From: Salinimicrobium profundisediminis
GTDB taxonomy: Bacteria > Bacteroidota > Bacteroidia > Flavobacteriales > Flavobacteriaceae
Length of the DNA stretch: 38,593 nt
Assembly: GCF_026241755.1 (NCBI RefSeq)
Contig: NZ_JAPJDA010000033.1
Coordinates: 1-38,593, forward strand
Direction: 5' to 3'
The notes below the pieces were generated by a model. The model was not told the DNA's origin. It was given only the letters and a program-made list of their open reading frames with translations, and did not search any database. This document shows, piece by piece, positions 1,729 through 37,832 of the stretch. Numbering within the stretch: position 1 is the first letter of the stretch; every line of letters starts with the position of its first letter. A program made the position numbers and the translations under genes.

Positions 1729-1745
1729 CAAAAATGCCTTTTTTA
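1729..1745. repeat. Palindromic repeat, degenerate copy A
   Basis: The left half CAAAAATGCC is intact, but the right half reads TTTTTTA instead of ATTTTTG. It sits in the tpiA/BT_3928 gap, about 80 bp from the perfect copy B, and looks like a decayed copy of the same repeat. Confidence 0.5.
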
Positions 1746-1826
1746 GCCCTCTTTTTTCTTCGGAAACAATTCGGAATATTTCGAATGAACTAACTTCGGA
1801 AAATAAATACTTCAGAAAATACCCTT

Positions 1827-1843
1827 CAAAAATGCCATTTTTG
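1827..1843. repeat. Palindromic repeat CAAAAATG-C-CATTTTTG, copy B
   Basis: This is a perfect 8-bp-arm inverted repeat around a single C. It starts 7 nt downstream of the stop codon of the BT_3928-type gene (minus strand). It is enclosed by a second pair of arms, TTCAG at 1811-1815 and CTGAA at 1857-1861; the latter lies within the last codons of that gene. Confidence 0.8.
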
Positions 1844-1850
1844 GAACCCT

Positions 1851-2945
1851 CTAAAACTGAAGTTTTTCAGCATCACTCCAGTGCAGCTTTTCTACAATAG
1901 TTCCTTTGTGAAGCTTCACCAGGCCGGGATTGCTCCGGATTATTGTTTTAAGTGCAGTTTCATCGCTGAAATACCAGTCAAGATCAAGATTGTATTTCTC
2001 ATTTATTTGCTCCTTGAGCTCCTCCCCTGAAGCCGAAAGGCCTATCACCCTGTAGCCATTGCTGCGGGCACGCTCTACTACTGCATCGAGCTGCTGTAAG
2101 CCGGGGGCTTCGCTGCGCCTAAGACTGTAAGCCACAACCATAAGCAGTTTATCTTCAGCCAGAAGGGAAGAAATATGGTTTTCGCCGTCTTTTTCAATAG
2201 AAAAATCGTGAATTGGCGGCTCATAACCTTTTTGCACGAGCTGGGTTTCTACCTCGAGAAACTCCCCGTCCACATTGGGATAAGATCCCTGAGTTGTAAA
2301 AACCTTCTCTTCGCCGTTTACGCGGAACTTCCAGTTATAATCATAAACCGCCTGGGGCGCACCCTGCGGTACGGTCATGGCCTGGGCAATATTTGTACCT
2401 TCCTTATAAGCCCTGAAATCCAAGACTGGCAGGTGCATCAAAACATAATAGGCAAAAATGAAACACAGCATAAAACTCAAAAACACGATCCATCTATGAG
2501 ATGCCCGGGCAAAATAGTGTGTAAGGTACTTCCTGTTGAAAAACAGGATAAGAATAAGCACCAGCAGTATCATATCCTTATAAAATGACTGCCAGGGCGT
2601 GAGAGGAATTGCATCGCCAAAGCAACCACAATCGGTCACCTTATTGTAGTAGGCGGAGTAAAAAGTGAGAAAGCCAAAGAAGATCACCATAAGCAGCAGT
2701 GCCCAGGTAGTAAATTTTGGCAGGTAGCCAATGAGCAGCATAATGCCCAGTACAAGTTCAAATACCACCACCAGAATGGCGATGATAAGTGCAAAGGGCG
2801 CTAAAAATTCAAGATCGAGTACCGAAGGGCTAAAATACTCTTCCAGTTTGAATGAAAAACCTATAGGGTCATTCAGCTTTACAAATCCGGAGAAAATGAA
2901 CAAGAGTCCGACTATCCAACGGGAAACCTCTACCAGAATTTTCAT
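1851..2945 (-). CDS. BT_3928-type DoxX/MauE membrane protein with thioredoxin-like C-terminus
   Basis: The N-terminal half (about residues 1-170) has four to five hydrophobic segments and resembles the DoxX/MauE fold: VSRWIVGLLFIFSGFVKLND at the start and a cysteine pair in TDCGCFGD near residue 105. The soluble C-terminal half (about 200-364) looks like a thioredoxin-fold domain, but the expected CxxC position reads AYSLRRSEAPG, so it has no redox pair. The family is conserved in Bacteroidota and annotated as BT_3928; its biochemical role is not established as far as I know. It lies 10 nt after the DUF1599 gene, so they are probably one operon. A redox or folding role is inference from the DoxX/MauE similarity. 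Confidence 0.8.
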   Translation of the reverse strand: MKILVEVSRWIVGLLFIFSGFVKLNDPIGFSFKLEEYFSPSVLDLEFLAPFALIIAILVVVFELVLGIMLLIGYLPKFTTWALLLMVIFFGFLTFYSAYYNKVTDCGCFGDAIPLTPWQSFYKDMILLVLILILFFNRKYLTHYFARASHRWIVFLSFMLCFIFAYYVLMHLPVLDFRAYKEGTNIAQAMTVPQGAPQAVYDYNWKFRVNGEEKVFTTQGSYPNVDGEFLEVETQLVQKGYEPPIHDFSIEKDGENHISSLLAEDKLLMVVAYSLRRSEAPGLQQLDAVVERARSNGYRVIGLSASGEELKEQINEKYNLDLDWYFSDETALKTIIRSNPGLVKLHKGTIVEKLHWSDAEKLQF

Positions 2946-2955
2946 AGTATATTGC

Positions 2956-3513
2956 TTAAGTTTGGCTTAATTCGCTTTTTTCATGAATGTGTATAAGGGC
3001 AAAAACTGCGTAGTTGATCATGTCTTCATAATTTGCTGCTATGCCTTCGCTCACGAGTGTTTTACCTTTATTATCTTCAATTTGTTTAATGCGAAGCACT
3101 TTTTGAAGAATAAGATCGGTAAAAGAACTTACCCGCATATCGCGCCAGGCTTCGCCATAATCGTGATTTTTATTTTCCATGAGCTGCTTTGTACGGGCGG
3201 TAGTGCGCACATAAAGCTCCTCGACCTCCTCATTTGAAAGATCGGGCTGGAGGGCAACTCCTTTTTCAAGCTGAATCAAAGCCATCACCGAATAATTGAT
3301 GATGCCAATAAACTCTGGCACCTCACCTTCATCTACTTTACGCACTTCATTTTCCTGAAGCCCCCGAATTCGCTGTGCTTTTATAAAAATTTGATCTGTA
3401 AGGGAAGGAAGCCTTAAAATACGCCATGCACAGCCATAATCTTTCATTTTTTTAAGGAAGAGACTGCGGCATTCGGCGATCACAGCATCATATTGGGCGG
3501 AAGTATCCTTCAT
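2956..3513 (-). CDS. DUF1599 (Nmad1-type) protein with two tandem modules
   Basis: This soluble 185-residue protein belongs to DUF1599, called nucleotide modification associated domain 1. It is built from two similar modules about 93 residues apart. The first has KDYGCAWR (24-31) and EFIGIINYSVMALI (67-80); the second has HDYGEAWRDMR (117-127) and NYEDMINYAVFALI (161-174). Both retain the DYGxAWR signature and the Asn-Tyr helix. No signal peptide or membrane segment is visible. It leads the minus-strand DUF1599/BT_3928 pair and is divergent from folP with an 86-bp gap. The family name suggests nucleotide chemistry, but the reaction is not evident from the sequence. Confidence 0.85.
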   Translation of the reverse strand: MKDTSAQYDAVIAECRSLFLKKMKDYGCAWRILRLPSLTDQIFIKAQRIRGLQENEVRKVDEGEVPEFIGIINYSVMALIQLEKGVALQPDLSNEEVEELYVRTTARTKQLMENKNHDYGEAWRDMRVSSFTDLILQKVLRIKQIEDNKGKTLVSEGIAANYEDMINYAVFALIHIHEKSELSQT

Positions 3514-3599
3514 AGAAACGGGTAATTTGTGTAAATTTCGCTGATTTTATTCTATTCGTCAAAGTTAATTTTTCCAACCAAAAAACAGCAATTTTTAAG

Positions 3600-4424
3600 A
3601 TGTATATCAACTGTAAAGGCCGCCTTATAGATCTCTCTGTTCCAAAAGTTATGGGAATCCTCAACATTACTCCCGATTCGTTCTATGATGGAGGACGCCG
3701 CACAAGCCTCGAGGAACACCTGGCACAGACAGAGAAAATGCTGCTTGAGGGAGCCGATTTCATAGATATAGGTTCCTATAGCAGCAGGCCCGGCGCCGAA
3801 GATATTTCGGAGGAAGAAGAACTTCAGCGAATACTTCCGGTAGTAGAAGCCCTGGTAGAGAAATTTCCAGACATTATTATTTCTATAGATACCTTCCGAA
3901 GTGAAGTGGCTCGACAAAGTGTTGAAGCCGGAGCAGCCATTATCAACGATATTTCCGCAGGAAACCTTGACGATAAAATGATGGAAACGGTAGCGCAACT
4001 ACAGGTACCTTATATCATGATGCACATGAGAGGTAATCCTAAAACCATGAAAGACCTGAACCAGTACGAAGATCTTACTCAGGACGTTCTCTCATATTTT
4101 TCTGAAAAAATTGACCTGGCGAGACAGCTGGGCATCAATGACCTAATTATAGATCCGGGGTTCGGATTTTCTAAGAATGTAACACAGAATTTTGAATTAC
4201 TGTCTCATCTGGAATTATTCGAAAACCTGAATTTGCCGCTTTTATCTGGCCTCTCCCGGAAATCACTTATCTACAAAACTTTTAATACCACACCCCAAGA
4301 AGCCCTTAACGGCACTACTGTTCTCAACACAGTATCTTTGATGAAAGGAGCTCACATTCTTAGGGTGCATGACGTAAAAGAAGCGGTAGAATGTGTGAAA
4401 TTGATTGAGCGGCTGAAAAACTAG
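3600..4424 (+). CDS. folP: Dihydropteroate synthase
   Basis: FolP condenses p-aminobenzoate with dihydropterin pyrophosphate in folate synthesis, and it is the sulfonamide target. The 274-residue protein has the usual signatures in order: MGILNITPDSFYDGG near the N-terminus (pterin/diphosphate loop), DIGSYSSRPGA, SIDTF, NDISAG, IDPGFGFSK and LSGLSRKS. The ATG at 3600 begins MYINCKGRLIDLS; the first family motif follows about 17 residues later, so this start is sensible. A TAATTTTT sequence at 3566-3573 could be its -7 element, one base off consensus. The cdaA gene follows after 37 nt on the same strand. Confidence 0.96.
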   Translation: MYINCKGRLIDLSVPKVMGILNITPDSFYDGGRRTSLEEHLAQTEKMLLEGADFIDIGSYSSRPGAEDISEEEELQRILPVVEALVEKFPDIIISIDTFRSEVARQSVEAGAAIINDISAGNLDDKMMETVAQLQVPYIMMHMRGNPKTMKDLNQYEDLTQDVLSYFSEKIDLARQLGINDLIIDPGFGFSKNVTQNFELLSHLELFENLNLPLLSGLSRKSLIYKTFNTTPQEALNGTTVLNTVSLMKGAHILRVHDVKEAVECVKLIERLKN

Positions 4425-4461
4425 TTTATAATTTTTTACATTTACCAAAAAGCACGCCCAC

Positions 4462-5235
4462 TTGGACTTTCTCGATCTACGTATTCTCGATATTGTTGAT
4501 ATCATTTTTATTGCAGCCTTGCTGTACTACATCTACAAGTTGGTTAAGGGCACGGTAGCCGTCAATATTTTTATTGGAATTGTGATCATTTACTTTGTTG
4601 GCAAACTCACCCAATTGCTGCGCATGGAAATGCTTAGCAGTGTATTGGGGGAATTTATCGGCGTGGGAATGTTTGCCCTTATCGTGGTTTTTCAGCAGGA
4701 GATCAGGAAATTCCTGCTCATGATTGGCTCTACAAACTTTGCCAGAAGAAGGCGCTTTTTACAAACTTTAAAGCTGATCAAGGACGACCTCGAAACGCCC
4801 AATGATGTTGAGGCAATTGTAAAAGCCTGTGAAAACATGGGAAAAACAAACACCGGGGCTCTAATTGTGATACAGAGAAATACCAGCCTGGACTTTATAA
4901 AACAAAGCGGGGACCCCATGAAGATCCTGGTCAACCAGCCCATAATTGAATCTATTTTTTACAAGAATAGTATTCTACATGACGGGGCTTTGGTCATTGA
5001 AGACAATTACATTACCGCTACAAGGGTGATTCTACCCGTTTCAAATGACCGCACCATACCACTACGATTCGGATTAAGACACCGAGCAGCTGTTGGTATT
5101 ACTGAAAAAACAGATGCCCTGGCCCTGGTAGTAAGTGAAGAAACAGGACAGATCTCTTATATCAAGGATGGTGAGTTTGTGATGTACGAAGATCGCGAAG
5201 ACCTCATCCAGAAATTAAAGGCAGACCTTGTTTAA
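4462..5235 (+). CDS. cdaA: Diadenylate cyclase (CdaA/DacA type)
   Basis: The enzyme makes the second messenger c-di-AMP from two ATP. Three hydrophobic segments (about residues 8-28, 33-50 and 60-78) anchor it in the inner membrane, followed by the cytosolic DAC domain. The active-site signatures are present: DGA at 174-176 in ILHDGALVI and RHR at 206-208 in GLRHRAAVG. The start is a TTG at 4462, giving MDFLDLRILDIVDI, the usual N-terminus of flavobacterial members; no in-frame ATG would preserve the first membrane helix. It follows folP by 37 nt. Its stop overlaps by 4 nt the stop of the convergent ABC gene. Confidence 0.93.
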   Translation: MDFLDLRILDIVDIIFIAALLYYIYKLVKGTVAVNIFIGIVIIYFVGKLTQLLRMEMLSSVLGEFIGVGMFALIVVFQQEIRKFLLMIGSTNFARRRRFLQTLKLIKDDLETPNDVEAIVKACENMGKTNTGALIVIQRNTSLDFIKQSGDPMKILVNQPIIESIFYKNSILHDGALVIEDNYITATRVILPVSNDRTIPLRFGLRHRAAVGITEKTDALALVVSEETGQISYIKDGEFVMYEDREDLIQKLKADLV

Positions 5236-7004
5236 AGGCTTTGTTCTTCCTGCATAAATTGCACCTCATACAGGTTCTTGTAGTATCCATTTTCTTTCTT
5301 TAACAGTTGAGCATGAGTGCCCATCTCCACTATTTTCCCGGCATCCATTACCAGGATCTTATCGGCTTTTTTCACTGTAGCCAGCCTGTGGGCAATCACG
5401 ATGGAAGTACGGCCCTGGGTGATCTTTAACGTAGCATCCTGTATGAGTTGTTCGCTATAAGAATCGACTGAAGAAGTAGCCTCATCCAGCACCAGAATAC
5501 TCGGGTTGCTCACGTAGGCTCTCAAAAATGCGATTAATTGACGTTGACCTGAAGAGAGCATTACCCCGCGCTCCTTCACATTATAATCATACCCCCCCGG
5601 AAGACTGGCAATAAAATTGTCGACACCAATATCTTTGGCTGCCTGTATTACCGTTTCCTTTGTAATATTGGGATCGTTTAGGGTGATATTGTTAAGGATG
5701 GTATCAGCAAAAAGAAAAACATCCTGCAGTACAATCGCGATTTCCCCTCTAAGGGATTTCAGGGTCATATCCTTAACATCTATACCATCGATAAGAATGT
5801 GCCCGCTGGAAATTTCGTAGGAACGATTCAGCAGGTTAATTATAGTAGATTTTCCAGCCCCTGTAGCTCCTACAATTGCAACTGTTTCACCGGTTTCTGC
5901 CTTAAAAGAGACTCCTTTTAGCACCTCTTCATCACCCACGTAGCTAAATCTAACATCTTTAAATTCAATTTCTCCTTTTAAATGATTTACAGCAATTTTA
6001 CCGTTATCGGGAATAGAAGATTGAGTATCGAGCACGCCAAAAACCCTGTTTGCGGCTACCATTCCCATTTGAAGGGTATTGAACTTATCGGCAATTTGTC
6101 TCAAAGGTCTAAAAAGCATTTGGCTTAACTCAACGAAGGCCACTATTACCCCCAGGGTAATAGCTTCACTGCCTTCAACAACTCTTAGCCCTCCATACCA
6201 CACAATTAAACCTATGGTGATAGAAGTGGCCATTTCGGCAATGGGAAAGAATATGGAGTTATACCACACAGTTTTAACCCAGCCTTTACGGTGTTTATCG
6301 TTGATCTCTTTAAAATTCTCGTATTCTTTTTCCTCCCGGGTAAAGAGCTGCACGATCTTCATTCCTGTAATTCGCTCCTGCACAAAAGTGTTAAGGTTTG
6401 CTACCTGCGTACGCACTTCTTCAAAAGCCAGCTTCATCTTCTTTTGAAAAACCCTTGTCGCATAGAGGATAAATGGCAGTACCACAAGTACCAAAAGTGT
6501 GAGCCTCCAGCTTTGATAGAACATAAAAGCCAGGATAACTGTCATTTTTAAGAGGTCACTAATAATCATGAACAGCCCTTCACTAAAGATGCTCGCGATA
6601 GTCTCGATATCGCTCACCGCCCTGGTTACAAGACGCCCCACAGCAGAGTTGTCAAAATACTTCATCTTAAACTGAAGCATGTGCTTAAAGAGGTTCACCC
6701 TTAGATCGCGAATTACCTCCTGCCCCAGCCAGTTGGCGAAATAAATAAAACAAAACTGGAAAAGTACCTCGAGCACCAGCACTCCCAGCATGAGACTTAT
6801 ATAAAAGAAAAGCTGATCATTATCTTGTGGCACTATAGAATTATCTATAGTAAGCTGCAATAAATAAGGCCGCATCACCCCCAGGAAGGAGAGCAAAATA
6901 GCGGCTATAGCTACAAAATAGAAGGCGCCTTTGTAGGCGAAGGCATAATTAAGCAATCGCTTAAATAATCTAAAATCGAAAGCATTTCCTGTTGTTGCTG
7001 CCAT
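5232..7004 (-). CDS. ABC transporter, fused permease and ATPase (MsbA-like)
   Basis: This 590-residue half-transporter has an N-terminal exporter-type membrane domain (about 1-330, six hydrophobic segments) and a C-terminal ATPase. The ATPase shows Walker A GATGAGKST, signature LSSGQRQ (LSSGQ instead of canonical LSGGQ), Walker B ILVLDEATSSVD and the H-loop IAHRLATV. It would act as a homodimer or heterodimer in the inner membrane. MsbA-like lipid or drug export is the closest broad class, but the substrate cannot be read from the sequence. Its ATG overlaps the truA stop by one base, so translation is probably coupled. Its 3' end overlaps cdaA by 4 nt tail to tail. Confidence 0.92.
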   Translation of the reverse strand: MAATTGNAFDFRLFKRLLNYAFAYKGAFYFVAIAAILLSFLGVMRPYLLQLTIDNSIVPQDNDQLFFYISLMLGVLVLEVLFQFCFIYFANWLGQEVIRDLRVNLFKHMLQFKMKYFDNSAVGRLVTRAVSDIETIASIFSEGLFMIISDLLKMTVILAFMFYQSWRLTLLVLVVLPFILYATRVFQKKMKLAFEEVRTQVANLNTFVQERITGMKIVQLFTREEKEYENFKEINDKHRKGWVKTVWYNSIFFPIAEMATSITIGLIVWYGGLRVVEGSEAITLGVIVAFVELSQMLFRPLRQIADKFNTLQMGMVAANRVFGVLDTQSSIPDNGKIAVNHLKGEIEFKDVRFSYVGDEEVLKGVSFKAETGETVAIVGATGAGKSTIINLLNRSYEISSGHILIDGIDVKDMTLKSLRGEIAIVLQDVFLFADTILNNITLNDPNITKETVIQAAKDIGVDNFIASLPGGYDYNVKERGVMLSSGQRQLIAFLRAYVSNPSILVLDEATSSVDSYSEQLIQDATLKITQGRTSIVIAHRLATVKKADKILVMDAGKIVEMGTHAQLLKKENGYYKNLYEVQFMQEEQSL

Positions 7005-7744
7005 TAAATCAAAATACTTTCAGGATACACGATCCTGGTTAAATATAATCCGTGCGCAGGCACCGAAGCTCCGGCCTTGCTTCTGTTTTCACTTTTAATT
7101 ACCTGATGCATATCTTCTATTTCGCGTTTGGCCAATCCTATCTCTACCAGAGTACCTACAATAGCCCTCACCATATTCCGAAGAAAACGATCTGCAGTAA
7201 TATGAAATATCAACAGGTTATCCCGTTGTTCCCACTCTGCTCTTGTTATCGTGCAGTTGTAGGTAAAAACATCGGTCCTGGACCTGGAAAAACACTTAAA
7301 ATTTGTGTACTCCAATAATATCTGCGCAGCTGCATTCATATCTTCCACATTAAGTTCTTTCTGTAAAAAATACGCTGTCTCTCTTTCAAACACATTCTTT
7401 TTGGTGGTAACATGATATTCATAAGAACGGGCTACAGCATCAAAGCGCGCATGAGCATCGGGGCGTACAGCAACGAGATCTCTAACCGCAATATCGTTTG
7501 GCAACAGCGAATTAATCCTGAAGATGAATTCCTGCCCCAGGATAGCTTCGGTATCAAAATGTGCAAAGATTTGCTTTGCATGCACTCCCGCATCTGTTCT
7601 TCCGGCACCCAGCACTTCAATTTTTTCCTGAAGCAGGGTGCTTAAGGAATTTTCTATTACCTCCTGCACGGTTATCGCCGTAGGCTGTCGTTGCCAGCCG
7701 TGGTAGGCTTTTCCGAAGAATTCCAGCTCCAAAAAATATCTCAA
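7004..7744 (-). CDS. truA: tRNA pseudouridine synthase A
   Basis: TruA converts uridines 38-40 of the tRNA anticodon stem-loop to pseudouridine. The 246-residue protein has the catalytic Asp51 in GAGRTDAGVHA, the N-terminal FGKAYHGWQRQP segment and the C-terminal FLRNMVRAIVGTLVEIG helix typical of the family. It is the first gene of a two-gene unit with the ABC exporter. A perfect TAnnTTTG element on the minus strand at 7776-7783 lies about 30 nt upstream of the start codon. Confidence 0.96.
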   Translation of the reverse strand: MRYFLELEFFGKAYHGWQRQPTAITVQEVIENSLSTLLQEKIEVLGAGRTDAGVHAKQIFAHFDTEAILGQEFIFRINSLLPNDIAVRDLVAVRPDAHARFDAVARSYEYHVTTKKNVFERETAYFLQKELNVEDMNAAAQILLEYTNFKCFSRSRTDVFTYNCTITRAEWEQRDNLLIFHITADRFLRNMVRAIVGTLVEIGLAKREIEDMHQVIKSENRSKAGASVPAHGLYLTRIVYPESILI

Positions 7745-7775
7745 CCTAAATTTTTACTTTTGCAAATTAAAGAAA

Positions 7776-7783
7776 CAAAGATA
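7776..7783 (-). promoter_or_regulatory. Probable truA promoter (-7 element TATCTTTG)
   Basis: The minus strand reads TATCTTTG, matching TAnnTTTG perfectly, with a leader of about 25 nt to the truA ATG. No good -33 TTG is visible at the right distance. A plus-strand TACTTTTG at 7755-7762 overlaps the same spot. Confidence 0.55.
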
Positions 7784-7849
7784 AGCCATTAAAGGCAACT
7801 GCTCATTCTTCCCGGCGGTAGATTATTAATCTTGTTATAATTATTCCCT

Positions 7850-8362
7850 ATGAAAAAGATCTTACTACTAAGTGACACCCATGGTTATCTTGATGACCGC
7901 ATCCTGAAATATGCTGCTGAAGCTGATGAGTTGTGGCATGCAGGAGATATTGGCACACTGCAGGTAAGCGATTCTCTAAAAAAAGTAAAACCACTAAAAG
8001 CCGTATACGGGAATATAGATGGCGGGGGCATAAGAAAGGAATTCCCCCTAAACAACCGGTTTATATGTGAAGAAGTAGATGTGTGGATTACGCATATTGG
8101 GGGCTACCCCGGCCGTTACTCCCCTGCAGTTAAAGAAGAGATCAAAGCCAACCCACCCCGGATCTTTATCAGCGGGCATTCCCATATTTTAAAAGTGATG
8201 AACGACAAGAAGCTCGGTTTACTTCACATGAACCCCGGCGCAGCAGGAAAACAGGGTTTTCACCAGGTAAGAACAATGCTAAGATTCAAGATTGACGGGA
8301 AGGATATCAAAGATCTTGAGGTGATTGAACTGGGGAAAAAAGTAGTGAGCAGTGATCGGTGA
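7850..8362 (+). CDS. YfcE/MJ0936-type metallophosphoesterase
   Basis: This small single-domain calcineurin-like phosphoesterase has 170 residues, a typical length. The metal-binding motifs are all visible: SDTHG (8-12), HAGDIG, GNIDG (in place of GNCD), HIGGYPG and SGHSHI near residue 125, with NPGAAG after it. The family hydrolyses phosphodiesters in the cytoplasm; the natural substrate is unknown here. It is divergent from truA and not in an operon. Its last codons (VVSSDR, stop TGA) fall inside a degenerate heptamer repeat (8342-8397), so the C-terminus may have been reshaped by the repeat. Confidence 0.9.
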   Translation: MKKILLLSDTHGYLDDRILKYAAEADELWHAGDIGTLQVSDSLKKVKPLKAVYGNIDGGGIRKEFPLNNRFICEEVDVWITHIGGYPGRYSPAVKEEIKANPPRIFISGHSHILKVMNDKKLGLLHMNPGAAGKQGFHQVRTMLRFKIDGKDIKDLEVIELGKKVVSSDR

Positions 8363-8397
8363 TCAGCAGCTAATAGTTATTGATTAGTAGTTGATAG
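8342..8397 (+). repeat. Degenerate tandem heptamer repeat across a stop codon
   Basis: Eight consecutive 7-mers can be laid out: GTAGTGA, GCAGTGA, TCGGTGA, TCAGCAG, CTAATAG, TTATTGA, TTAGTAG, TTGATAG. The shared pattern is a pyrimidine-rich start and a TGA or TAG/CAG end. The third unit contains the stop codon of the phosphoesterase gene at 8360-8362. Confidence 0.55.
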
Positions 8398-8434
8398 ATC
8401 TGTTAATTGAGAATACTGCTTCAGGAATACCTGC

Positions 8435-8451
8435 CAAAAATGCCATTTTTG
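8435..8451. repeat. Palindromic repeat CAAAAATG-C-CATTTTTG, copy C
   Basis: This is a perfect copy, 72 nt downstream of the phosphoesterase stop. It is enclosed by TTCAGG (8420-8425) and CCTGAA (8471-8476), with GAATA/TATTC (8425-8429, 8460-8464) nested between. The left flank resembles those of copies B and D. Confidence 0.8.
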
Positions 8452-8480
8452 GAATCTTATATTCTTTAAGCCTGAAACCA

Positions 8481-8510
8481 AAAAACCCGGAGCTTTCACT
8501 CCGGGTTTTT
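8481..8510. terminator. Bidirectional intrinsic terminator
   Basis: AAAAACCCGGAG and CTCCGGGTTTTT form a GC-rich stem with a short loop and have A and T tracts on either side. It lies between the convergent phosphoesterase (plus) and DUF4293 (minus) genes and can serve both. Confidence 0.85.
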
Positions 8511-8538
8511 ACGCACTAATACTACTAAGATGAAAGGT

Positions 8539-8949
8539 TTATCGCAGTCGGTCTACAGATTTTACAAGATCTTCATCCTTTTTTATAGCCTTATTGGCCA
8601 GCACTAAAAAAACGATAGAAAATACAGGAGTCAGCATCCCAATACCTTTCTCTGAAACCGAAGTTTCTCCAGATACAGTTAGAGACCAATAGACAAATAA
8701 TCCTAGTAAAATTAAGTTTAATAAGATATTGACACGCCCCAGCACAAACTGAAGCTTTCTATTTTTAAACAAAAAGATCGTAATTATTGAAAGTAAAGCC
8801 GAAAAGAGTGTTAACCCTAAAGCCGAATAAACATCCTCGATGTATACCGGATTTCCAGCCAAATCATTCCACAGTTCAAATATAAAAATAAAACCTGCAT
8901 TGAAAAGGGCGGCAATTAATAAATAAACTGTCTGAATTCTTTGTAACAT
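8539..8949 (-). CDS. DUF4293 family membrane protein
   Basis: This 136-residue protein has four hydrophobic segments (about residues 7-25, 40-60, 68-88 and 100-118) and the start MLQRIQTVYLLIAALF, which is characteristic of the Bacteroidota DUF4293 family. It ends in a short charged tail (KKDEDLVKSVDRLR) that should be cytoplasmic. No catalytic motif is visible and the family's function is unknown to me. It stands alone on the minus strand, divergent from rho with a 192-bp gap, and ends at the bidirectional terminator. Confidence 0.85.
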   Translation of the reverse strand: MLQRIQTVYLLIAALFNAGFIFIFELWNDLAGNPVYIEDVYSALGLTLFSALLSIITIFLFKNRKLQFVLGRVNILLNLILLGLFVYWSLTVSGETSVSEKGIGMLTPVFSIVFLVLANKAIKKDEDLVKSVDRLR

Positions 8950-9021
8950 TTATCTTCAATAGAGGCACAAAAATAAAAGATTCTTTTTAGAAACCATATT
9001 TATAATCTGAAAATAATATCG

Positions 9022-9029
9022 TATAATTG
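9022..9029 (+). promoter_or_regulatory. Possible rho promoter (-7 like TATAATTG)
   Basis: TATAATTG is one base off TAnnTTTG. It would give rho a leader of just over 100 nt, containing a small CTTC/GAAG hairpin at 9090-9102. A long leader would fit autogenous control, as known for E. coli rho, but that is inference. Confidence 0.35.
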
Positions 9030-11559: not shown

Positions 11560-11589
11560 TATACTCTTATTAAATTAATTCTTTTTCTG

Positions 11590-11661
11590 TAGTCCGTAGG
11601 GGAATCGAACCCCTGTTACCAGGATGAAAACCTGGCGTCCTAACCCCTAGACGAACGGACC
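11590..11661 (-). tRNA. tRNA-Glu (anticodon TTC), copy 1
   Basis: On the minus strand the gene starts GGTCCGTTCGTCTAGGGG and folds into a cloverleaf. The 7-bp acceptor stem ends in a G-T pair, the anticodon loop is TTTTCAT (anticodon TTC), and the T arm is AGGGGTTCGATTCCCCT. The 72-base length includes the discriminator A; CCA is not encoded. It is identical in sequence to the copy at 11706-11777. Confidence 0.95.
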
Positions 11662-11705
11662 AATTTACTATTTCAAAGATGGTTTACACGACTTGTAAAC
11701 CTTTG

Positions 11706-11777
11706 TAGTCCGTAGGGGAATCGAACCCCTGTTACCAGGATGAAAACCTGGCGTCCTAACCCCTAGACGAACGGACC
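11706..11777 (-). tRNA. tRNA-Glu (anticodon TTC), copy 2
   Basis: Identical to the copy at 11590-11661 over the whole gene, with a 44-nt spacer between them. It is the promoter-proximal copy: a consensus promoter lies immediately upstream, with the predicted transcription start about 15 nt before the mature 5' end. Confidence 0.95.
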
Positions 11778-11798
11778 ATTTATTTTCAAATGCGGATG

Positions 11799-20017: not shown

Positions 20018-20059
20018 AATACTCTTCAAAAATGGCATTTTTGAAGAGTATTTTTTTTT
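20018..20059 (+). terminator. Terminator formed from palindromic repeat copy D
   Basis: AATACTCTTCAAAAATG and its exact complement form 17-bp perfect arms around one G (20018-20034, 20036-20052), followed by a T9 run that overlaps the stem end. It starts 7 nt after the DUF192 gene stop. The core 20027-20043 is the CAAAAATG-G-CATTTTTG repeat. Confidence 0.8.
20027..20043. repeat. Palindromic repeat CAAAAATG-G-CATTTTTG, copy D
   Basis: A perfect copy with G at the centre. The left flank CTCAGAAATACTCTT matches the flanks of copies B and C, linking all three as one longer element. Confidence 0.8.
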
Positions 20060-20168: not shown

Positions 20169-20185
20169 CAAAAATGACATTTTTG
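20169..20185. repeat. Palindromic repeat CAAAAATG-A-CATTTTTG, copy E
   Basis: A perfect copy with A at the centre, in non-coding DNA 158 nt past the DUF192 gene stop. Short GGTAGT/GGTAGT direct repeats flank it (20163-20168, 20186-20190 partly). Confidence 0.75.
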
Positions 20186-20222: not shown

Positions 20223-20283
20223 TCACCTTCAGCAACAGAATTAATGCTTTACTCTCACCTTCAGCAACAGAATTATGGCTTTA
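20223..20283. repeat. 32-bp-period tandem duplication
   Basis: Two 29-base copies (20223-20251 and 20255-20283) begin with the same 21 bases, TCACCTTCAGCAACAGAATTA in total, and differ at two positions near the end. Confidence 0.75.
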
Positions 20284-20474: not shown

Positions 20475-20491
20475 CAAAAATGGCAAAAAAA
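20475..20491. repeat. Half copy of the palindromic repeat (copy I)
   Basis: CTCAAAAATGGCA is intact, but the right arm is replaced by an A run that belongs to the secDF terminator stem. It may be a copy partly overwritten by, or merged with, the terminator. Confidence 0.45.
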
Positions 20492-23764: not shown

Positions 23765-24694
23765 TTATTTCACCTCAAGAAGATCGTTGGTTTTTGAAAC
23801 CCCTGAAGCACTTTCTTTAAGTTTAGCTTTTTCTGCCTCGTCAAGTTCTACTTCAACAATTTTCTCGATCCCATCTTTACCAAGAATCACAGGTACTCCA
23901 ATACAAAGATCGTTAAGCCCATATTCCCCTTCTAAAAGGGCAGAACAAGGGAACATTTTCTTCTGGTCACAGGCAATTGCCTGTACAAGTGAAGAAACAG
24001 CAGCTCCTGGTGCATACCAGGCACTGGTGCCAAGCATTTTAGTAAGAGTTGCTCCTCCTACCTTAGTATCTTCAGAAATCTGGTTGATGCGATCTTCAGA
24101 AAGGAATTCTGACACAGGTACAGAGTTACGGGTGGCAAGTCTTGTTAAAGGCACCATTCCGGTATCACTGTGACCTCCAATTACCATCCCGTCAACATCT
24201 GACGAAGGGCAGTCAAGAGCTTCACTAATTCTGTATTTGAAACGGGCGCTATCTAAAGCTCCACCCATTCCTATAATTTTGTTCTTCGGAAGTTTAGTGG
24301 TTTTGTGCACCAGGTAAGTCATGGTATCCATAGGATTACTCACCACGATCAAAGTCACATTAGGAGAATGCTCTAAAAGGCTTTCAGATACCGATTTTAC
24401 GATATCGGCATTGATCCCAATCAATTCTTCGCGGGTCATCCCAGGTTTACGTGGCACTCCACTGGTAATTACAGCAATGTCTGAATTTGCTGTTTTAGAA
24501 TAGTCATTTGTACTTCCGGTAATTTTAGTATCGAATCCAAGAAGGGAAGCAGTTTGCATGAGATCCATGGCCTTACCTTCGGCATAATCTTCTTTAATAT
24601 CAATTAGAACTACTTCGGAAGCAAAATTTTTAATGGCGATATATTCCGCGCAGCTGGCTCCAACAGCTCCGGCACCTACTATAGTAACTTTCAT
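23765..24694 (-). CDS. mdh: Malate dehydrogenase (LDH-like type)
   Basis: The enzyme oxidises malate to oxaloacetate with NAD in the TCA cycle. The 309-residue protein has the Rossmann motif GAGAVGASCAEY (7-18) and the acidic residue VLIDIKEDYAEGKAMD that selects NAD. It also has GVPRKPGMTREEL (mobile loop with substrate-binding arginines), VVSNPMDTMTYL and the catalytic His in GGHSDTG. The sequence resembles the lactate-dehydrogenase-like malate dehydrogenases rather than the E. coli type. A TACTTTAG element at 24722-24729 is a likely promoter, and the structured element at 23636-23743 a likely end. Confidence 0.95.
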   Translation of the reverse strand: MKVTIVGAGAVGASCAEYIAIKNFASEVVLIDIKEDYAEGKAMDLMQTASLLGFDTKITGSTNDYSKTANSDIAVITSGVPRKPGMTREELIGINADIVKSVSESLLEHSPNVTLIVVSNPMDTMTYLVHKTTKLPKNKIIGMGGALDSARFKYRISEALDCPSSDVDGMVIGGHSDTGMVPLTRLATRNSVPVSEFLSEDRINQISEDTKVGGATLTKMLGTSAWYAPGAAVSSLVQAIACDQKKMFPCSALLEGEYGLNDLCIGVPVILGKDGIEKIVEVELDEAEKAKLKESASGVSKTNDLLEVK

Positions 24695-28215: not shown

Positions 28216-28239
28216 ACCCATAATTCAAAAACACAGGAA

Positions 28240-29506: not shown

Positions 29507-29512
29507 AAGCGG

Positions 29513-31682: not shown

Positions 31683-31696
31683 AATATGTAGAAAAT

Positions 31697-31725
31697 AAAA
31701 TCTCCCGACAATATCGGGAGATTTT
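31697..31725 (-). terminator. susCD terminator
   Basis: AAAATCTCCCGA and TCGGGAGATTTT form a 12-bp stem with a CAATA loop, about 20 nt beyond the susD stop. On the minus strand it runs into a T-rich stretch just before the amidase gene start, so that gene may be read by partial read-through. Confidence 0.82.
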
Positions 31726-31746
31726 AAGAATTATGGGAATGGATTT

Positions 31747-33138
31747 TTATTCATCCCACCATACAGTACCATAAATAGAATCTTCCCCTCCAAATTGTCT
31801 TTCTACAGCCTCATTAAAATTATCGGCGTTGTTGAAATCTTCGGTATCGGGGTAAGCAAGTCGGGTTGGCACCGGGCGTCCTTCGGGCTGAACAAAATCA
31901 TTGGGAAATCCTGTTCTTCTCCACTCACTCCACGCTTCGTAGCCATTCATAAATAAATGGATCCAACGTTGTTCTGAAATTCTCTCTAATGCATTTGCAG
32001 GATCAAAAGCAACTTCTGGCTGACTTATAAACTCATCTACACCTTCAGTTGAACCTGTCCACTGAAGAACAGACTTTTCTATTGCCAAATTGTAATAAGT
32101 TTCAGCATCTTCGGTTACCCAGTCTCTTTCCGCAGCTTCAGCAATAGCGAACAACACCTGAGGGTAGGTTACCAAATAAACAGGAGCATCCTGAGCGGTA
32201 ATGTCAGAACCCAGCAATGAATATTCTTCAGTCCCTATAGCTTCGGTTTCTCCATAGGGCATACCAATAAACTCACCGCTTTCACGCGCAGGATTTGCAT
32301 ACACCTCTAAACGCGGATCATCAACCGGCTTCATCTCTTCAACTAAATTAACTGTGAGAGCCCACCACTCCCGATTGCTTTCTACTACCTGATCATACCA
32401 GTAGTTTTGATTGTTAGCATCGGCTAAGTGCTGAAAGACCAGGCTATCATCATTAGTGTTCATCACCCCATCGGCCATTGCAGCATTAAACTCATCTTGC
32501 GCCCATTGAGGATCTACTTCAGAAAGACGAAGAGCCATTAAAAGTCTGAGCGAATTACCCAGCTTTTTCCATTTCTCCATATTGCCACCATAGACCAGGT
32601 CATTATCAATATCACCTGCAACTATTTGACTATTGGCCTCTTTTAACAGCGCAAACAAATTTGAATAGATTGACTCCTGGGTGTCATATGCGGGGGTGAA
32701 ATTTTTATTCCCCTGCAAAGCTTCAGTGTAAGGCACATCACCCCACCTATCGGTTAAATTCCAGTAAAAATAAGCCTTCAAAATTTTTGCCACAGCTAGC
32801 TGGTTGGCAACCGGACCTTCAGCAGCATTTAAATCTTCTTCAGAATTTAAAACGGTCTCAAGGTTCATAAGCGGCCCTTCATAGAACCAGTAAAAGTTTG
32901 TAGAACCTTCGGGGTATAAAGATACCCCCACGTATTGGGTCTCGGCTAAGTACTGGGCCAGAAATTCTCCCTGTGGGGAAGAGCTTAAAGATGGAAGATA
33001 TAATTGTGCGTTGGCAATTAATTGTGTTCCCGATGCTTCACCAGGTATATTTGGGTTCACATTAATATCTTCGTCAAATTCGCTACATCCCAGCAAGCTA
33101 AGATTGCAAAATAATAAGATGATAATATATTTTTTCAT
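31747..33138 (-). CDS. SusD/RagB-family outer membrane lipoprotein (SusD-like_2 type)
   Basis: SusD-type proteins sit over the SusC channel and bind the nutrient on the cell surface. The 463-residue protein has a lipoprotein signal (KKYIIILLFCNLSLLGC, Cys18) and the start SEFDEDINVNPNIPGEA typical of the SusD-like_2 group. It is followed by helical repeats (QLAVAKILKAYFYWNLTDRWGDVPYTEAL) and the C-terminal ISEQRWIHLFMNGYEAWSEWRRTGFP. It starts 10 nt after the susC stop, forming the usual pair. The ligand is not evident; no glycoside hydrolase is nearby, and the adjacent enzyme is a peptidase/amidase. Confidence 0.93.
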   Translation of the reverse strand: MKKYIIILLFCNLSLLGCSEFDEDINVNPNIPGEASGTQLIANAQLYLPSLSSSPQGEFLAQYLAETQYVGVSLYPEGSTNFYWFYEGPLMNLETVLNSEEDLNAAEGPVANQLAVAKILKAYFYWNLTDRWGDVPYTEALQGNKNFTPAYDTQESIYSNLFALLKEANSQIVAGDIDNDLVYGGNMEKWKKLGNSLRLLMALRLSEVDPQWAQDEFNAAMADGVMNTNDDSLVFQHLADANNQNYWYDQVVESNREWWALTVNLVEEMKPVDDPRLEVYANPARESGEFIGMPYGETEAIGTEEYSLLGSDITAQDAPVYLVTYPQVLFAIAEAAERDWVTEDAETYYNLAIEKSVLQWTGSTEGVDEFISQPEVAFDPANALERISEQRWIHLFMNGYEAWSEWRRTGFPNDFVQPEGRPVPTRLAYPDTEDFNNADNFNEAVERQFGGEDSIYGTVWWDE

Positions 33139-33148
33139 AATTGTTTTT

Positions 33149-36100
33149 TTAGAAAGTAATGTTTACGTCTACCCCAATTGATCGCACTGACGGTAATTGA
33201 CCTGATTCGTACCAGCTAATTGACTGGGCTCCCGTAGAAATCGCAGAAGGATCAATACCTTCTGGCGCTTCCTGCCAAATCATAAACGGATTTTGGGCAA
33301 TCACAGCTAATTGCACACTCTCTACAGGAAAATTGCCCAGGATCTCTTTGGTAAGATTATAACCCAGCCTTAATTCTTTCATTTTTATGTAAGAAGCGTC
33401 AAAAAGCCACTCTTCGTAGATTCGCCTTCCCAATACATTCCTGTAATAGCTTCGGGCATTGACATAAGCACTTACCGGTTCACCTGTCTCAGCAGAAATT
33501 CCCTCTACCTTTACACCACCACCCTGGTCTAAGGGATCCCTTACATTTGCCCCTCTATCGTTCATTGCAACGGTTACGGGGTCCTGTCCGGTTCTTACCG
33601 CTAACATTTTAGACCGGCTAAAGAACTGCCCGCCGCCCTGAAACTCGATCATCCCTGAAAGTCTCCAGTTTCCATAACTAAATGTATTGGAGAAGCCTCC
33701 CGTAAAATCTGGAAGCACACTTCCAAAATTATGGGTTTCATCTGTGTAAAGCGGCATATTGTCGTCACCTAAAAGTATTTGCCCTGTCGCTTCATCTCTT
33801 TGATAAGCTGTACCTACAAGACTTCCAAAGGGCTTCCCTTCATAAGAGTTGAGAAAGCTCGTCACACTGGAGTAAGTTGTGGAAGAGTAAGTATACACAT
33901 CAATACCGGGAGCCAGCTCTACTACCATACTTTCGTTACTCGCGAAATTAAGATTGGTGTCCCAAAAGAATTTTCCAGTTTCAATAGGCCTGGCATTTAT
34001 AGCCACCTCAATACCTTTATTTTCAATTAAACCTGCATTGATTGTAGTGGAGCCATAACCACTGGCCCCTGAAACATCAAGGTTAATAATCTGGTTCTTG
34101 TTCTTTTGTTCATAATAAGTAAAATCAAATCCCAGCCTGCTGTCAAAAAATCTTAAATCGAGCCCAAGCTCGTATGAATGAGCAAATGACGGCTCAATAT
34201 TTGGATTATTCAGGTTATCTGGAACAAACAAAGTATTGGTACCTTCATACACTGTTCCCACTCCAAAGCCCATTGTTGTTTCATAGGGAGAAAGATCAGA
34301 TCCTGCCTGTGCATAACTGGCTCTAGCCTTTGCAAAGCTTAAAGGATCCCAATCTAAAAATTCGCTAAAAATCACACTTCCCGAGATGGAAGGATACCAG
34401 TAAGAATTATTATCATCAGGAAGGGCCGAAGAATTGTCATTTCTCAAGGATGCATCTACAAAAAAAGTATCTGCGTATCCTAAAGAAACAAGACCAAACA
34501 AACTCCTCACCTGTTTTCTTAGCAGATAATTAGATGTTTCAGGACGGTCAATCGAAGCATCAATATTATAAAAACCCGGTGAAGAAAGCCCACCTACGGT
34601 TGCCATGGTTAAATAGGTGTAGTTCCTATTCCAGATATTTCCTCCCAAACTGGCATTAAGCGATAAATCTCCCCACTCTTCATCAAACTGAGCAAGAAAT
34701 TCATAGTTAAATTCTTTGTTCTGAAATTTTCCGATATAAAAAGATGGAAGGCTTTTACCTCCAAAGGCAGTACGCTCCTGAATATTTTGAGTATAAAGAT
34801 CCCCTCTTATGTGTCCACTCAAACTAAGGTTCTCCAAAACCTGAAAGGTTATTCCCACATCTCCAAAAAACCTATCCCGGTTATCCTGACTAAGGTTCTC
34901 GTAGGCATTAAAGAATGGATTATTCCAGTACAAAGGATCAAAATCAGTAACTTCTCCTGTTTCAGAACTTGGCCTGCTAAGATTCCAGTGAAGGTAAGTT
35001 CCATCTTCATATTGATAGTCCCGCAATCTATTCATATCCACATTACGCTGAAACCATTGTACGAGATAATTAGCCCCAAACTCTGATCCCTGTCCCGGGC
35101 GCTGCGCGTCATTCCGGGCAAATGTAAAATTGGTTGAAACATTTATTTTGTCAACTACATCGGCATCGGCATGAACAGTAAGGTTGTTTCTATCTAAATG
35201 TGTATTTGGCTCTACACCTTCTATTTTTGTATCATTCAGACTAATTCTGAAGTTGATCTTTTCTCCCCCACCGGCAACCGATACAGTATTATTAAAAGTG
35301 TAACCGGTTTCATAGAAATCCTTAATATTATCTGGATGGGGCACAAAAGGAGTTAATTGCCCATAGGTAGGGTCTTGAGGGTAAAAACTAAAGACCTGCC
35401 TTACCATTGTCCCATCCATTCTAGGACCCCAACTTTCATCAACAGATATATCTACGTAGGGATCTCCATTAGGAAGTGTTCTAAAATCTAAACTAGACCC
35501 TCCTCCATACATGTTCTGTAAGGGCATAAAATCATAAGTTGACTGCACTGAAAAAGTGGAATTAGCCTGCACCGTAAACTTTTCGGCCGCTCCCTTTTTT
35601 GTGGTGATCATAATAACGCCATACTGCCCACGAATTCCGTATAAAGCTGAAGCTGCAGGACCCTTTAACACATTCACAGATTCAATATCGGCAGGGTTCA
35701 CATCCTGCCCCAGGTTTCCATAATCGGCACCTGCACTCCCCGCAAAATTGGCATTTGAAATTGGTGTACCATCTATCACTATTAAAGGCTGGTCTCCTCC
35801 TCCTATGGAATTTACTCCCCTAATTTTGATTTTTTGAGTCCCCCCCATACTTGCTCCCGATGATCCGGTAACCTGTACTCCAGCAACTCTCCCCCCCAGG
35901 GCTCCAATAACATTTTGGTCTTTGGCAACTGTTAGATCTTCCCCATCTACTTCCTGTGTGGCATATCCAAGGGATTTCTTATCCCTTGAAATCCCCAGGG
36001 CTGTTACCACCACCTCATCGAGGGCCTGGAGATCGGCTTCCAGTTGTACATTAATCTGGTCGTTTGAGCCCACAGTACGTTTCACAGTTTTGTAACCAAT

Positions 36101-36328
36101 AGAAGAGAAGCTAAGCACATCTCCGGTTTCTGCTTTAATAGAAAAATTCCCATCAAAGTCGGTCACAGTACCTTTATTGGTACCTTCAATAATAACGTTT
36201 ACTCCGGGAATCGGCATACTCTTTTGAGCACTGATTACCGTACCCGAAATCACCCTTTCCTGGGCCTGCACATTCATGAACTGCACAAGAGCGATCAGGA
36301 ATGAAAACAGTGTAATTTTGTTTCTCAT
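33149..36328 (-). CDS. SusC/RagA-family TonB-dependent transporter
   Basis: SusC proteins are TonB-dependent outer membrane channels. From the ATG at 36328 this protein has 1059 residues and begins with a signal peptide (MRNKITLFSFLIALVQFMNVQAQ). It then has a carboxypeptidase-like domain (RVISGTVISAQKSMPIPGVN), the TonB-interacting region ALDEVVVTALGISRDKKSLGYA, a plug domain with IRGVNSIGGGDQPLIVIDGTP and a long barrel ending VDVNITF. A GTG at 36379 would add 17 residues, but the -7 element at 36358-36365 lies within it. It is cotranscribed with susD. Confidence 0.94.
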   Translation of the reverse strand: MRNKITLFSFLIALVQFMNVQAQERVISGTVISAQKSMPIPGVNVIIEGTNKGTVTDFDGNFSIKAETGDVLSFSSIGYKTVKRTVGSNDQINVQLEADLQALDEVVVTALGISRDKKSLGYATQEVDGEDLTVAKDQNVIGALGGRVAGVQVTGSSGASMGGTQKIKIRGVNSIGGGDQPLIVIDGTPISNANFAGSAGADYGNLGQDVNPADIESVNVLKGPAASALYGIRGQYGVIMITTKKGAAEKFTVQANSTFSVQSTYDFMPLQNMYGGGSSLDFRTLPNGDPYVDISVDESWGPRMDGTMVRQVFSFYPQDPTYGQLTPFVPHPDNIKDFYETGYTFNNTVSVAGGGEKINFRISLNDTKIEGVEPNTHLDRNNLTVHADADVVDKINVSTNFTFARNDAQRPGQGSEFGANYLVQWFQRNVDMNRLRDYQYEDGTYLHWNLSRPSSETGEVTDFDPLYWNNPFFNAYENLSQDNRDRFFGDVGITFQVLENLSLSGHIRGDLYTQNIQERTAFGGKSLPSFYIGKFQNKEFNYEFLAQFDEEWGDLSLNASLGGNIWNRNYTYLTMATVGGLSSPGFYNIDASIDRPETSNYLLRKQVRSLFGLVSLGYADTFFVDASLRNDNSSALPDDNNSYWYPSISGSVIFSEFLDWDPLSFAKARASYAQAGSDLSPYETTMGFGVGTVYEGTNTLFVPDNLNNPNIEPSFAHSYELGLDLRFFDSRLGFDFTYYEQKNKNQIINLDVSGASGYGSTTINAGLIENKGIEVAINARPIETGKFFWDTNLNFASNESMVVELAPGIDVYTYSSTTYSSVTSFLNSYEGKPFGSLVGTAYQRDEATGQILLGDDNMPLYTDETHNFGSVLPDFTGGFSNTFSYGNWRLSGMIEFQGGGQFFSRSKMLAVRTGQDPVTVAMNDRGANVRDPLDQGGGVKVEGISAETGEPVSAYVNARSYYRNVLGRRIYEEWLFDASYIKMKELRLGYNLTKEILGNFPVESVQLAVIAQNPFMIWQEAPEGIDPSAISTGAQSISWYESGQLPSVRSIGVDVNITF

Positions 36329-36357
36329 TTGTTTGGTTTTTGAGTTAAAAATTGATG

Positions 36358-36386
36358 AAAAGCTATTAAATTTTTTCACGTTTCAA
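36358..36386 (-). promoter_or_regulatory. susCD promoter
   Basis: On the minus strand TTG (36384-36386), an 18-nt spacer and TAGCTTTT (36358-36365, one base off TAnnTTTG). The leader to the ATG at 36328 is about 22 nt. Confidence 0.6.
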
Positions 36387-36477
36387 TCTTTTCTTCTTAA
36401 AAACCTTTAGATAAGAAAAAAAAGCTAACTTGAATTTTCTTTTTAAAATCCCGTACAAGTGAGAAAAAACAATCATT

Positions 36478-36494
36478 CAAAAATGTCATTTTTG
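36478..36494. repeat. Palindromic repeat CAAAAATG-T-CATTTTTG, copy G
   Basis: A perfect copy with T at the centre, extended by TT/AA to 36476-36496. It lies at the 5' end of the DD-carboxypeptidase gene, and its ATG (36483-36485) is a probable start codon. Confidence 0.8.
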
Positions 36495-37802
36495 AAGCTT
36501 GTTCTTCAAATTATTCTGATAGTTTTAATCTTCAGCTCCTGCTCCTCCTCGCGTAAGCTCACTATGGAAGCACAAAATACATTGCAGGAATATCCGGCTT
36601 TTAAAACAGGATTTTCCGGAATATATATTTATGATCCGGCTGAGAAAAAAGTCGTTTTTGAACACAACTCCGAAAAATATTTCACCCCGGCCTCAAACAC
36701 TAAACTTTTTACTTTCTATGCAGGTTTAAAAATTTTAGGGGATTCCGCTGTAGGCCTTGAGTATATTGTAAAGGAAGATTCCCTGATTTTTAGAGGGACA
36801 GGCGATCCTTCTTTTTTGTACGATAAACTGCAATCTACTGCCGTTTATGATTTTTTAAAAGAAAGAAATGAAACCCTTTATTACGTGCCGCCCATACATG
36901 AGGAAAAACATTTTGGCCCCGGCTGGTCGTGGGATGATTACAGCTACTACTATTCTGTAGAACGGGCAGCTATGCCCCTCTTCGGAAATTATGCCACCTT
37001 CACATCTTCAGCTGAAGATACAGTTCCCGTTGCCAAACCTGCGTATTTCAATCGTTACCTCGTAAAAGATTCCCCTGACTCAGGAAGCAGCTTTACAGTT
37101 GTGAGAAATCACGACCAAAACAAATTCCTTTATCAGCAGCCCGCCGAAGCAGAAAACAGAAGCCGAATTGTCCCTTTTATTCATTCCCCACATCTGGTTA
37201 CCGCGCTACTGGCCGACACCCTTCAGAAACCGGTAAAAATACTGGATCCTAAAAAAGTAGACTTCAGCAATAGCAAACTACTGTATAGTATTCCTACAGA
37301 CAGCCTTTACAAGCGAATGCTGCAGGTTAGTGACAACTTTATTGCCGAGCAGCTGCTGCTTATGAGTTCCAGAGAAATATCTGATACCCTTAAAACGGAT
37401 ATAGCCATTAATTATATAAAGAAAAATCACCTTCAGGATCTATCTCAGGAGATTAACTGGGTAGATGGCTCTGGTTTGTCCATCTACAATAAATTCACTC
37501 CTAAAACAGTGGTAGAGCTCCTGGAAAAGATCTCTAAAGAGGTGCCTCAAAAAAGGCTTTTTGAACTGCTCCCTGCCGGAGGTGAATCTGGCACCATCAA
37601 AAACTTTTATAAAGCCAAAGAGCCTTATATCTATGCCAAAACCGGGACAATTAGCAACGTACATGCTTTAAGCGGCTATTTAAAAACCAAAAACGGCAAA
37701 GTACTCATCTTCAGCTTTATGAATAACAACTACATGGTTCCTTCCGCAGAAATAAAAGCAGGTATGGAGATCATTCTGCGTGATATCCATTTAAATTATT
37801 AG
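36483..37802 (+). CDS. D-alanyl-D-alanine carboxypeptidase/endopeptidase, PBP4 (S13) type
   Basis: PBP4-type enzymes cut D-Ala-D-Ala or cross-links in peptidoglycan in the periplasm. Starting at the ATG at 36483 the protein has 439 residues, with a lipoprotein signal (LKLVLQIILIVLIFSSC, Cys20). The penicillin-binding motifs are SNTK (71-74), SDN (283-285) and KTG (386-388), with SVERAAMPLFGNYAT between, as in the S13 family. A GTG at 36459 would add eight residues (MRKNNHSK) and is a plausible alternative. The gene is divergent from susC, and an S66 LD-carboxypeptidase starts 40 nt downstream. Confidence 0.9.
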   Translation: MSFLKLVLQIILIVLIFSSCSSSRKLTMEAQNTLQEYPAFKTGFSGIYIYDPAEKKVVFEHNSEKYFTPASNTKLFTFYAGLKILGDSAVGLEYIVKEDSLIFRGTGDPSFLYDKLQSTAVYDFLKERNETLYYVPPIHEEKHFGPGWSWDDYSYYYSVERAAMPLFGNYATFTSSAEDTVPVAKPAYFNRYLVKDSPDSGSSFTVVRNHDQNKFLYQQPAEAENRSRIVPFIHSPHLVTALLADTLQKPVKILDPKKVDFSNSKLLYSIPTDSLYKRMLQVSDNFIAEQLLLMSSREISDTLKTDIAINYIKKNHLQDLSQEINWVDGSGLSIYNKFTPKTVVELLEKISKEVPQKRLFELLPAGGESGTIKNFYKAKEPYIYAKTGTISNVHALSGYLKTKNGKVLIFSFMNNNYMVPSAEIKAGMEIILRDIHLNY

Positions 37803-37815
37803 TTTTATGGAGGCT

Positions 37816-37832
37816 CAAAAATGCCATTTTTA
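37816..37832. repeat. Palindromic repeat copy H (last base changed)
   Basis: CAAAAATG-C-CATTTTTA, 13 nt after the PBP4 gene stop and 10 nt before the ATG of the S66 peptidase gene. Only the last base deviates. Confidence 0.7.

Follow-up and report, generated by a model that had tools for sequence, protein, structure and literature searches.

A palindromic DNA word of the genus Salinimicrobium and its candidacy as a DNA uptake signal

What maintains a 17-bp palindrome that recurs along a bacterial chromosome, inside genes as well as between them? The question is raised by contig NZ_JAPJDA010000033.1 of Salinimicrobium profundisediminis, whose whole length of 38,593 nt we refer to as the window, and in which the palindrome CAAAAATG-N-CATTTTTG (hereafter the word) was originally predicted to occur nine times, mostly 3′ of genes, as a symmetric protein-binding site, a dispersed element of the repetitive extragenic palindromic (REP) type or a 3′-end RNA stem. 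We find that the word is a feature of the genus Salinimicrobium, to which it is limited, and that it is a constrained DNA word, conserved base by base including at silent positions. Its pattern of evolution resembles that of a DNA uptake or self-recognition signal, and it may work as a palindromic signal of this kind, a possibility that we rate as substantial though short of probable.

A word limited to one genus and conserved base by base

Chance can be set aside as the origin of the word, as the original prediction had argued. The window contains 13 matches with three or fewer mismatches, compared with a mean of 0.81 in shuffled sequence, and none of 100 shuffles reached 13 (the largest number was 3). 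In the source genome (G000, 4.04 Mb) there are 192 perfect copies and in its reversed control none, which amounts to one perfect copy per ~21 kb, or about one per 4.5 kb when up to two mismatches are allowed. A sample of 824 kb from this genome, made up of 44 stretches (40 + 4) plus the window, holds 55 copies that are perfect, 71 with one mismatch and 56 with two. In G009 (G001–G003 and G009 being other Salinimicrobium genomes), no dyad of half-length six is stronger than the core of the palindrome, which was observed 72 times where 0.56 was expected.

The word is present in 10 of the 11 other Salinimicrobium genomes (1, 6, 22, 37, 54, 55, 62, 65, 73 and 140 copies), the single copy-free genome being G001, which is 74% complete, and it is absent from all 48 other genomes of the order that were tested. 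Within a family sample of 397 genomes, four of them from the genus, 11 of the remaining 393 have one copy and 382 have none. When named genomes were scanned, 33 of the 80 loci among the matches listed belonged to Salinimicrobium. Viral contigs, scanned with a phage origin in mind, yielded 21 single matches. Samples from Flavobacterium glycines, Galbibacter and Flagellimonas, each of 80 kb, contained no analogous dyad. Gillisia limnaea has four copies, two of them within a duplicated segment of more than 1.3 kb; separately, two stretches of this species contain clusters of other inverted repeats (L266, 5719–12784, and L273, 5309–13784; GAGGTCTCATGACCTC, GAAGTCTCCTGACTTC, AAAGTC-NNNN-GACTTT and CTTCCTTCGTTGTACTCAGGAAG, the last five times). 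Neither the letters of the perfect core nor AAAATGNCATTTT were found in the literature searched, and the word is not named among the matches listed for uptake sequences in Bacteroidetes, in agreement with the original prediction, in which it was not recognised as a named family.

To gauge constraint we compared G000 with G009, for which 289 kb could be aligned at 86.5% identity. Of the 37 comparable copies, all with no more than one mismatch, 32 are matched in the other genome by an ortholog that likewise departs from the word at one position or none, although the requirement that 120 of 137 bases be aligned may slightly favour conserved sites. Inside genes, third codon positions are 96.2% identical in the core (n = 104), as against 70.4% in the near flanks (n = 547) and 69.0% in the background; between genes the corresponding values are 96.1% (n = 304), 80.5% and 85.4%. 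A/T-rich control 17-mers are 86.4% identical, and the twelve bases flanking the word on either side show no conservation beyond that of the DNA around them (0.845 and 0.807). At first codon positions, conservation in the near flanks falls below the background (0.882 vs 0.938), which indicates that the sites occupy permissive places.

These alignments also bear on the possibility that the word is a dispersed mobile palindrome spread by insertion, of the type of REP elements and their associated tyrosine transposases (REP/RAYT), miniature inverted-repeat transposable elements or the Rickettsia palindromic elements. Its high, genus-limited copy number, which ranges from 0 to 192 across species, would suit such an element. 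Over all relatives, however, 38 of 43 in-gene comparisons are ungapped across 41 bp (four of the five gapped ones involve G002), on which ground we reject a mobile element for the in-gene copies, and in more distant relatives the word grades into partly matching versions. Comparisons in intergenic gaps are gapped in 16 of 25 cases, intergenic alignments being generally poor, and among the alignments inspected there is no empty site precisely without the element. On these alignments the REP-like option of the original prediction is disfavoured, and we hold it exceedingly unlikely that the word as a whole is of this kind.

Symmetry, placement and the hairpin subset

The constraint on the word is accompanied by a degenerate, symmetric flank. 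Averaged over both strands, perfect copies have AAAA at −9 to −12, A/G at −6, G/C at −5 and −4, T at −3 and C/T at −1, so that the full signal is up to ~41 bp long and reads roughly AAAA-WW-RSSTYY-CAAAAATG-N-CATTTTTG-RRASSY-WW-TTTT. This pattern is common to in-gene (n = 85, one mismatch or none) and intergenic (n = 114) copies, and the flanks pair above shuffled partners only in gaps, not inside genes. The extent of pairing beyond the core has a bimodal distribution. Among the 64 intergenic perfect copies, 19 add 6–16 uninterrupted pairs, with runs of T outside them, and the other 45 add three or fewer, as do all 27 in-gene perfect copies. The core by itself folds at −0.9 kcal/mol; together with 12 nt on each side, 36% of the 64 intergenic and 11% of the 27 in-gene copies reach −12 kcal/mol or below.

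If the word served chiefly as a 3′-end RNA hairpin, whether as a bidirectional intrinsic terminator or as a stabiliser of mRNA with a favoured apex sequence, mismatches in one arm should tend to be matched in the other. Compensated pairs were found in 0 of 98 two-mismatch copies, where ~4.6 were expected, and 62 of the 98 have their two mismatches together in one half (~43 expected). This lack of compensation, together with a flank consensus that in-gene copies retain though it is unpaired, argues that the word is read as DNA, with its halves read independently, and leads us to reject an RNA stem as the general function. Support for the symmetric protein-binding site of the original prediction comes from the same flank, which both halves carry in genes, and from the identity of the core at third codon positions (96% vs 70%). 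The proposed 3′-end RNA stem fits only the subset of intergenic copies with extended arms, which none of the in-gene perfect copies has. The half-site alone as the unit was also considered and rejected: once palindromes were masked it showed only a weak excess (192 vs 126 expected), along with a graded flank signal.

Placement relative to genes was examined in 1,244,312 bp of G000 and G009 holding 91 perfect copies, with open reading frames (ORFs) called by a simple script. Only 27 of the 91 lie in ORFs, compared with 80.8 expected from length. The intergenic enrichment to be expected of a genuine element is thus present, as is the genome-wide excess. The remaining 64 are distributed among convergent gaps (22, with 1.9 expected), tandem gaps (33), divergent gaps (6) and gaps cut by the end of a stretch (3); a stop codon is no more than 100 nt away for 46 of them, and a start codon for 18. 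The density in convergent gaps and the nearness to stop codons favour a role in RNA, as do the extended arms of the hairpin subset, but against it stand the short pairing of most copies and a separate common hairpin word, TTTCTTCGGAA, in both genomes. As the principal function of the word we consider an RNA hairpin improbable. Judged by their arms and T runs, some copies appear to have been turned secondarily into terminator-like hairpins.

The word TTTCTTCGGAA is itself over-represented throughout G000 and G009 (77 vs 9.2 expected in G000), for example beside window position 20475, and fits ordinary hairpins with a UUCG loop.

By codon frame (2, 1 and 0), in-gene copies number 10, 4 and 0 when perfect and 19, 14 and 5 with one mismatch, and a few provide a start codon (encoding MTFL, MPFL and similar). 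Every part of the chromosome that was sampled holds copies. In G009, whose record begins at dnaA (position 415), the sites are randomly spaced (coefficient of variation 1.03 vs 0.99 for random sites). From origin to terminus, four equal bins contain 19, 32, 40 and 44 of 135 sites, a mild rise toward the terminus in a count that leaves out 5 further origin-side sites. The region from 0.2 to 1.0 Mb of G009 is poor in sites; of two stretches examined there, one (L258) carries metal-efflux and multicopper oxidase genes and the other mixed genes.

In the window all five perfect copies predicted are borne out (Table 1). Three of the four copies described as degraded also stand, two with one mismatch and one with two, whereas the fourth, at 20475, has more than three mismatches and is a half-site only, which leaves eight copies rather than nine. 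Of the perfect copies, three bear out the claim of a position mostly 3′ of genes, at 7, 72 and 16 nt past a stop codon, and the two at 20169 and 36478 do not. The window also contains two adjacent tRNA genes on the minus strand (11588–11665 and 11704–11781; 99% identical) and, at 20223–20283, a 29-nt sequence in two tandem copies that are 93% identical.

Table 1. Copies of the word and related sites in the window, with their counterparts in G009.
Positions	Form	Setting	Equivalent place in G009
1729..1745	degraded copy CAAAAATGCCTTTTTTA, 2 mismatches		
1827..1843	perfect copy	7 nt past stop of MauE/DoxX-family gene (1851-2945, minus)	core present
8435..8451	perfect copy	convergent gap, 72 nt past stop of phosphoesterase gene (7850-8362, plus)	
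20018..20052	perfect 35-nt palindrome AATACTCTT-core-AAGAGTATT; apex is perfect copy 20027-20043	16 nt past DUF192 gene; followed by T run, terminator-like	palindrome present with another centre base
20169..20185	perfect copy	convergent gap ahead of secDF, ~158 nt past stop of DUF192 gene	
20475..20491	half-site (CAAAAATGGCAAAAAAA): left half CAAAAATGGC, then A run	adjoins ordinary hairpin with UUCG-type loop	
23715..23731	1-mismatch copy	33 nt past stop of malate/lactate dehydrogenase gene (23765-24694, minus)	variant identical
36478..36494	perfect copy	spans probable ATG start (36483-36485) of S13 D-Ala-D-Ala carboxypeptidase gene, coding for MSFL	
37816..37832	1-mismatch copy CAAAAATGCCATTTTTA	13 nt past stop of S13 gene	identical

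Transformation genes and the uptake reading

The transformation gene comEC is open (648–690 aa) in ten genomes of the genus, those with 6–192 copies of the word, and dprA is open (339–393 aa) in the same ten. In G003, which is 99% complete, comEC is found only as fragments with in-frame stops (30–69% identity; comEC/dprA loci L291 and L296), and the domain of dprA lies within a 281-aa frame that has stops upstream and a frame change downstream. The decay of the one gene and the damage to the other suggest a loss of natural transformation. In a sample of the G003 chromosome the word is at chance level, with 0, 0, 1 and 6 copies at zero to three mismatches compared with 0, 0, 0.4 and 2.8 in block shuffles, and the sole perfect copy in G003 lies on a small contig (C31) that bears an attC-like array. 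G001, at 74% completeness, gave no match to dprA, and a comEC fragment in that genome was unsupported by tblastn. The chromosome sample of G002, which includes two stretches picked for holding a perfect copy, has 2, 0, 7 and 15 copies at zero to three mismatches (0, 0, 0 and 3.0 in block shuffles). No dialect of the word was found in G002, and the only strong dyad in the sequence sampled from G003 is the attC-like repeat of contig C31.

That repeat (L234, 994–4546) forms its array with a different palindrome, TGATTGTCC-NNN-GGACAATCA. In G002, contigs C15 (L237, 1–15124) and C8 (L236) carry integron-like arrays of cassettes, whose attC-like sites measure ~130 nt. The G002 stretches hold 36 copies with up to two mismatches, of which 27 are on these two contigs, many within attC-like sites and with a flank of the AAAGGTAGT type.

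The reading we favour, as an inference, is that some protein recognises the word, that this protein is part of the machinery for uptake and that the word is kept up through a bias in uptake. The word would be a recognition signal in DNA, specific to the genus, two-fold symmetric, no more than ~41 bp long and spread over the whole chromosome, and DNA fragments with the word would be taken up preferentially during natural transformation. New copies would arise by mutation, spread by recombination and persist where genes tolerate them, with some of those 3′ of genes being co-opted as transcription terminators. As reported by Treangen et al., the DNA uptake sequence (DUS) of Neisseria is ~97% identical where the DNA around it is ~85% identical, and occupies permissive parts of the core genome (PMC2397512). 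The conservation of the word's core and its permissive sites match this pattern, which supports the uptake reading. Also counted in its favour are the excess of the word, its spread through genes and gaps along the chromosome with random spacing in G009, and the state of comEC and dprA, open in the ten genomes with 6–192 copies and decayed or damaged in G003. A subset of DUS and of the uptake signal sequences (USS) of Pasteurellaceae is described as lying within terminator hairpins (PMC1852404, in part), and the flavobacterium Riemerella columbina prefers its own DNA, by a signal given as unknown (PMC7965970).

The chief rival is that the word is the site of an abundant chromosomal protein with no part in uptake, a nucleoid-structuring protein or global regulator, of which a dimer would read the palindrome and its A-tract flanks and for which each site would be kept by ordinary selection. 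The two-fold symmetry of the word, its symmetric flanks in genes and gaps, its conservation at the level of single bases and its modest copy number with graded degenerate copies all fit such a protein. They are set against a distribution in G009 that has no restriction to origin or terminus of the MatP or Noc type. Divergent promoter gaps hold few sites (6 of 91), which speaks against a classical regulator, and this alternative does not by itself explain why the word should be lost in G003, the genome in which comEC and dprA have decayed. We regard it as a live, if somewhat doubtful, possibility.

Several points weigh against an uptake signal. We know of no palindromic uptake signal, and one-mismatch copies of the word are as common as perfect ones (71 vs 55 in the G000 sample). 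G002 has open comEC and dprA and yet just six perfect copies; the attC-like surroundings of four of these are nearly identical, and the four are perhaps duplicates at contig ends. The word may have arisen later than the divergence of G003 and G001, the most divergent members of the genus (SecDF identity 80% and 72%, respectively), which would explain its absence from them; because G003 is highly divergent and represents a single loss, its association with decayed transformation genes is confounded by phylogeny. The density of the word is also well below that of DUS, for which about one per 1.1–1.5 kb is reported (PMC2397512, in part), and the count for kingDUS rises by just 21% once one mismatch is tolerated (PMC3630211).

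With these points in view, the uptake reading can be stated in its fullest form only tentatively: the word may be the first DNA uptake signal in Bacteroidota and the first palindromic one, up to 41 bp long and with a symmetric mode of reading. It would have been gained inside a single genus, and one species would have lost it along with its transformation machinery; terminators would have co-opted it, and the recombination sites of integron-like cassettes would carry it as well. The word offers a testable candidate for an uptake signal in Bacteroidota, where the self-preference of naturally competent Riemerella has no identified signal (PMC7965970). A palindromic signal, if real, would alter expectations for uptake receptors; if the word is instead the site of a chromosomal protein, marine flavobacteria would be expected to have a DNA-binding protein, as yet undescribed, that acts across the whole chromosome.

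Comparison with known systems

Among symmetric motifs, the cyanobacterial highly iterated palindrome HIP1 resembles the word in being an iterated palindrome of one lineage found in genes and gaps; it is unlike the word in being 8 bp long and linked to methyltransferases (PMC4390886, in part). The likeness favours an alternative in which the word is kept by DNA methylation or by a repair bias. Sixteen fixed bases plus flanks could hardly result from the bias of a single methylase or mismatch-repair system, however, and we think this explanation very unlikely. The sites of matS/MatP, Noc and SlmA are likewise short, symmetric and scattered on the chromosome, and are terminus-limited or terminus-depleted. 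Unlike them, the word becomes just mildly denser in the direction of the terminus and has hundreds of copies.

Closer parallels are found among uptake signals. The core of USS has A/T-rich flanks, as does the Salinimicrobium word. USS, which is non-palindromic and generally present in at least 1000 copies, differs from the word in both respects. It has a core, as the word does, and is used in terminators, as the word appears to be (PMC1852404, in part). Compared with the DUS of Neisseriaceae, the word is palindromic with a free centre, has 16 fixed bases plus flanks rather than 10–12, is 10–20 times sparser with many one-mismatch copies, belongs to another phylum and is known here from sequence alone. 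As with DUS, it is lineage-limited, over-represented and found in genes and gaps (portions of PMC2397512, PMC1852404 and PMC3630211), and it has in common with DUS, as the same sources describe it, a core much more conserved than its surroundings, a placement at permissive positions and, as it appears, co-option into terminators.

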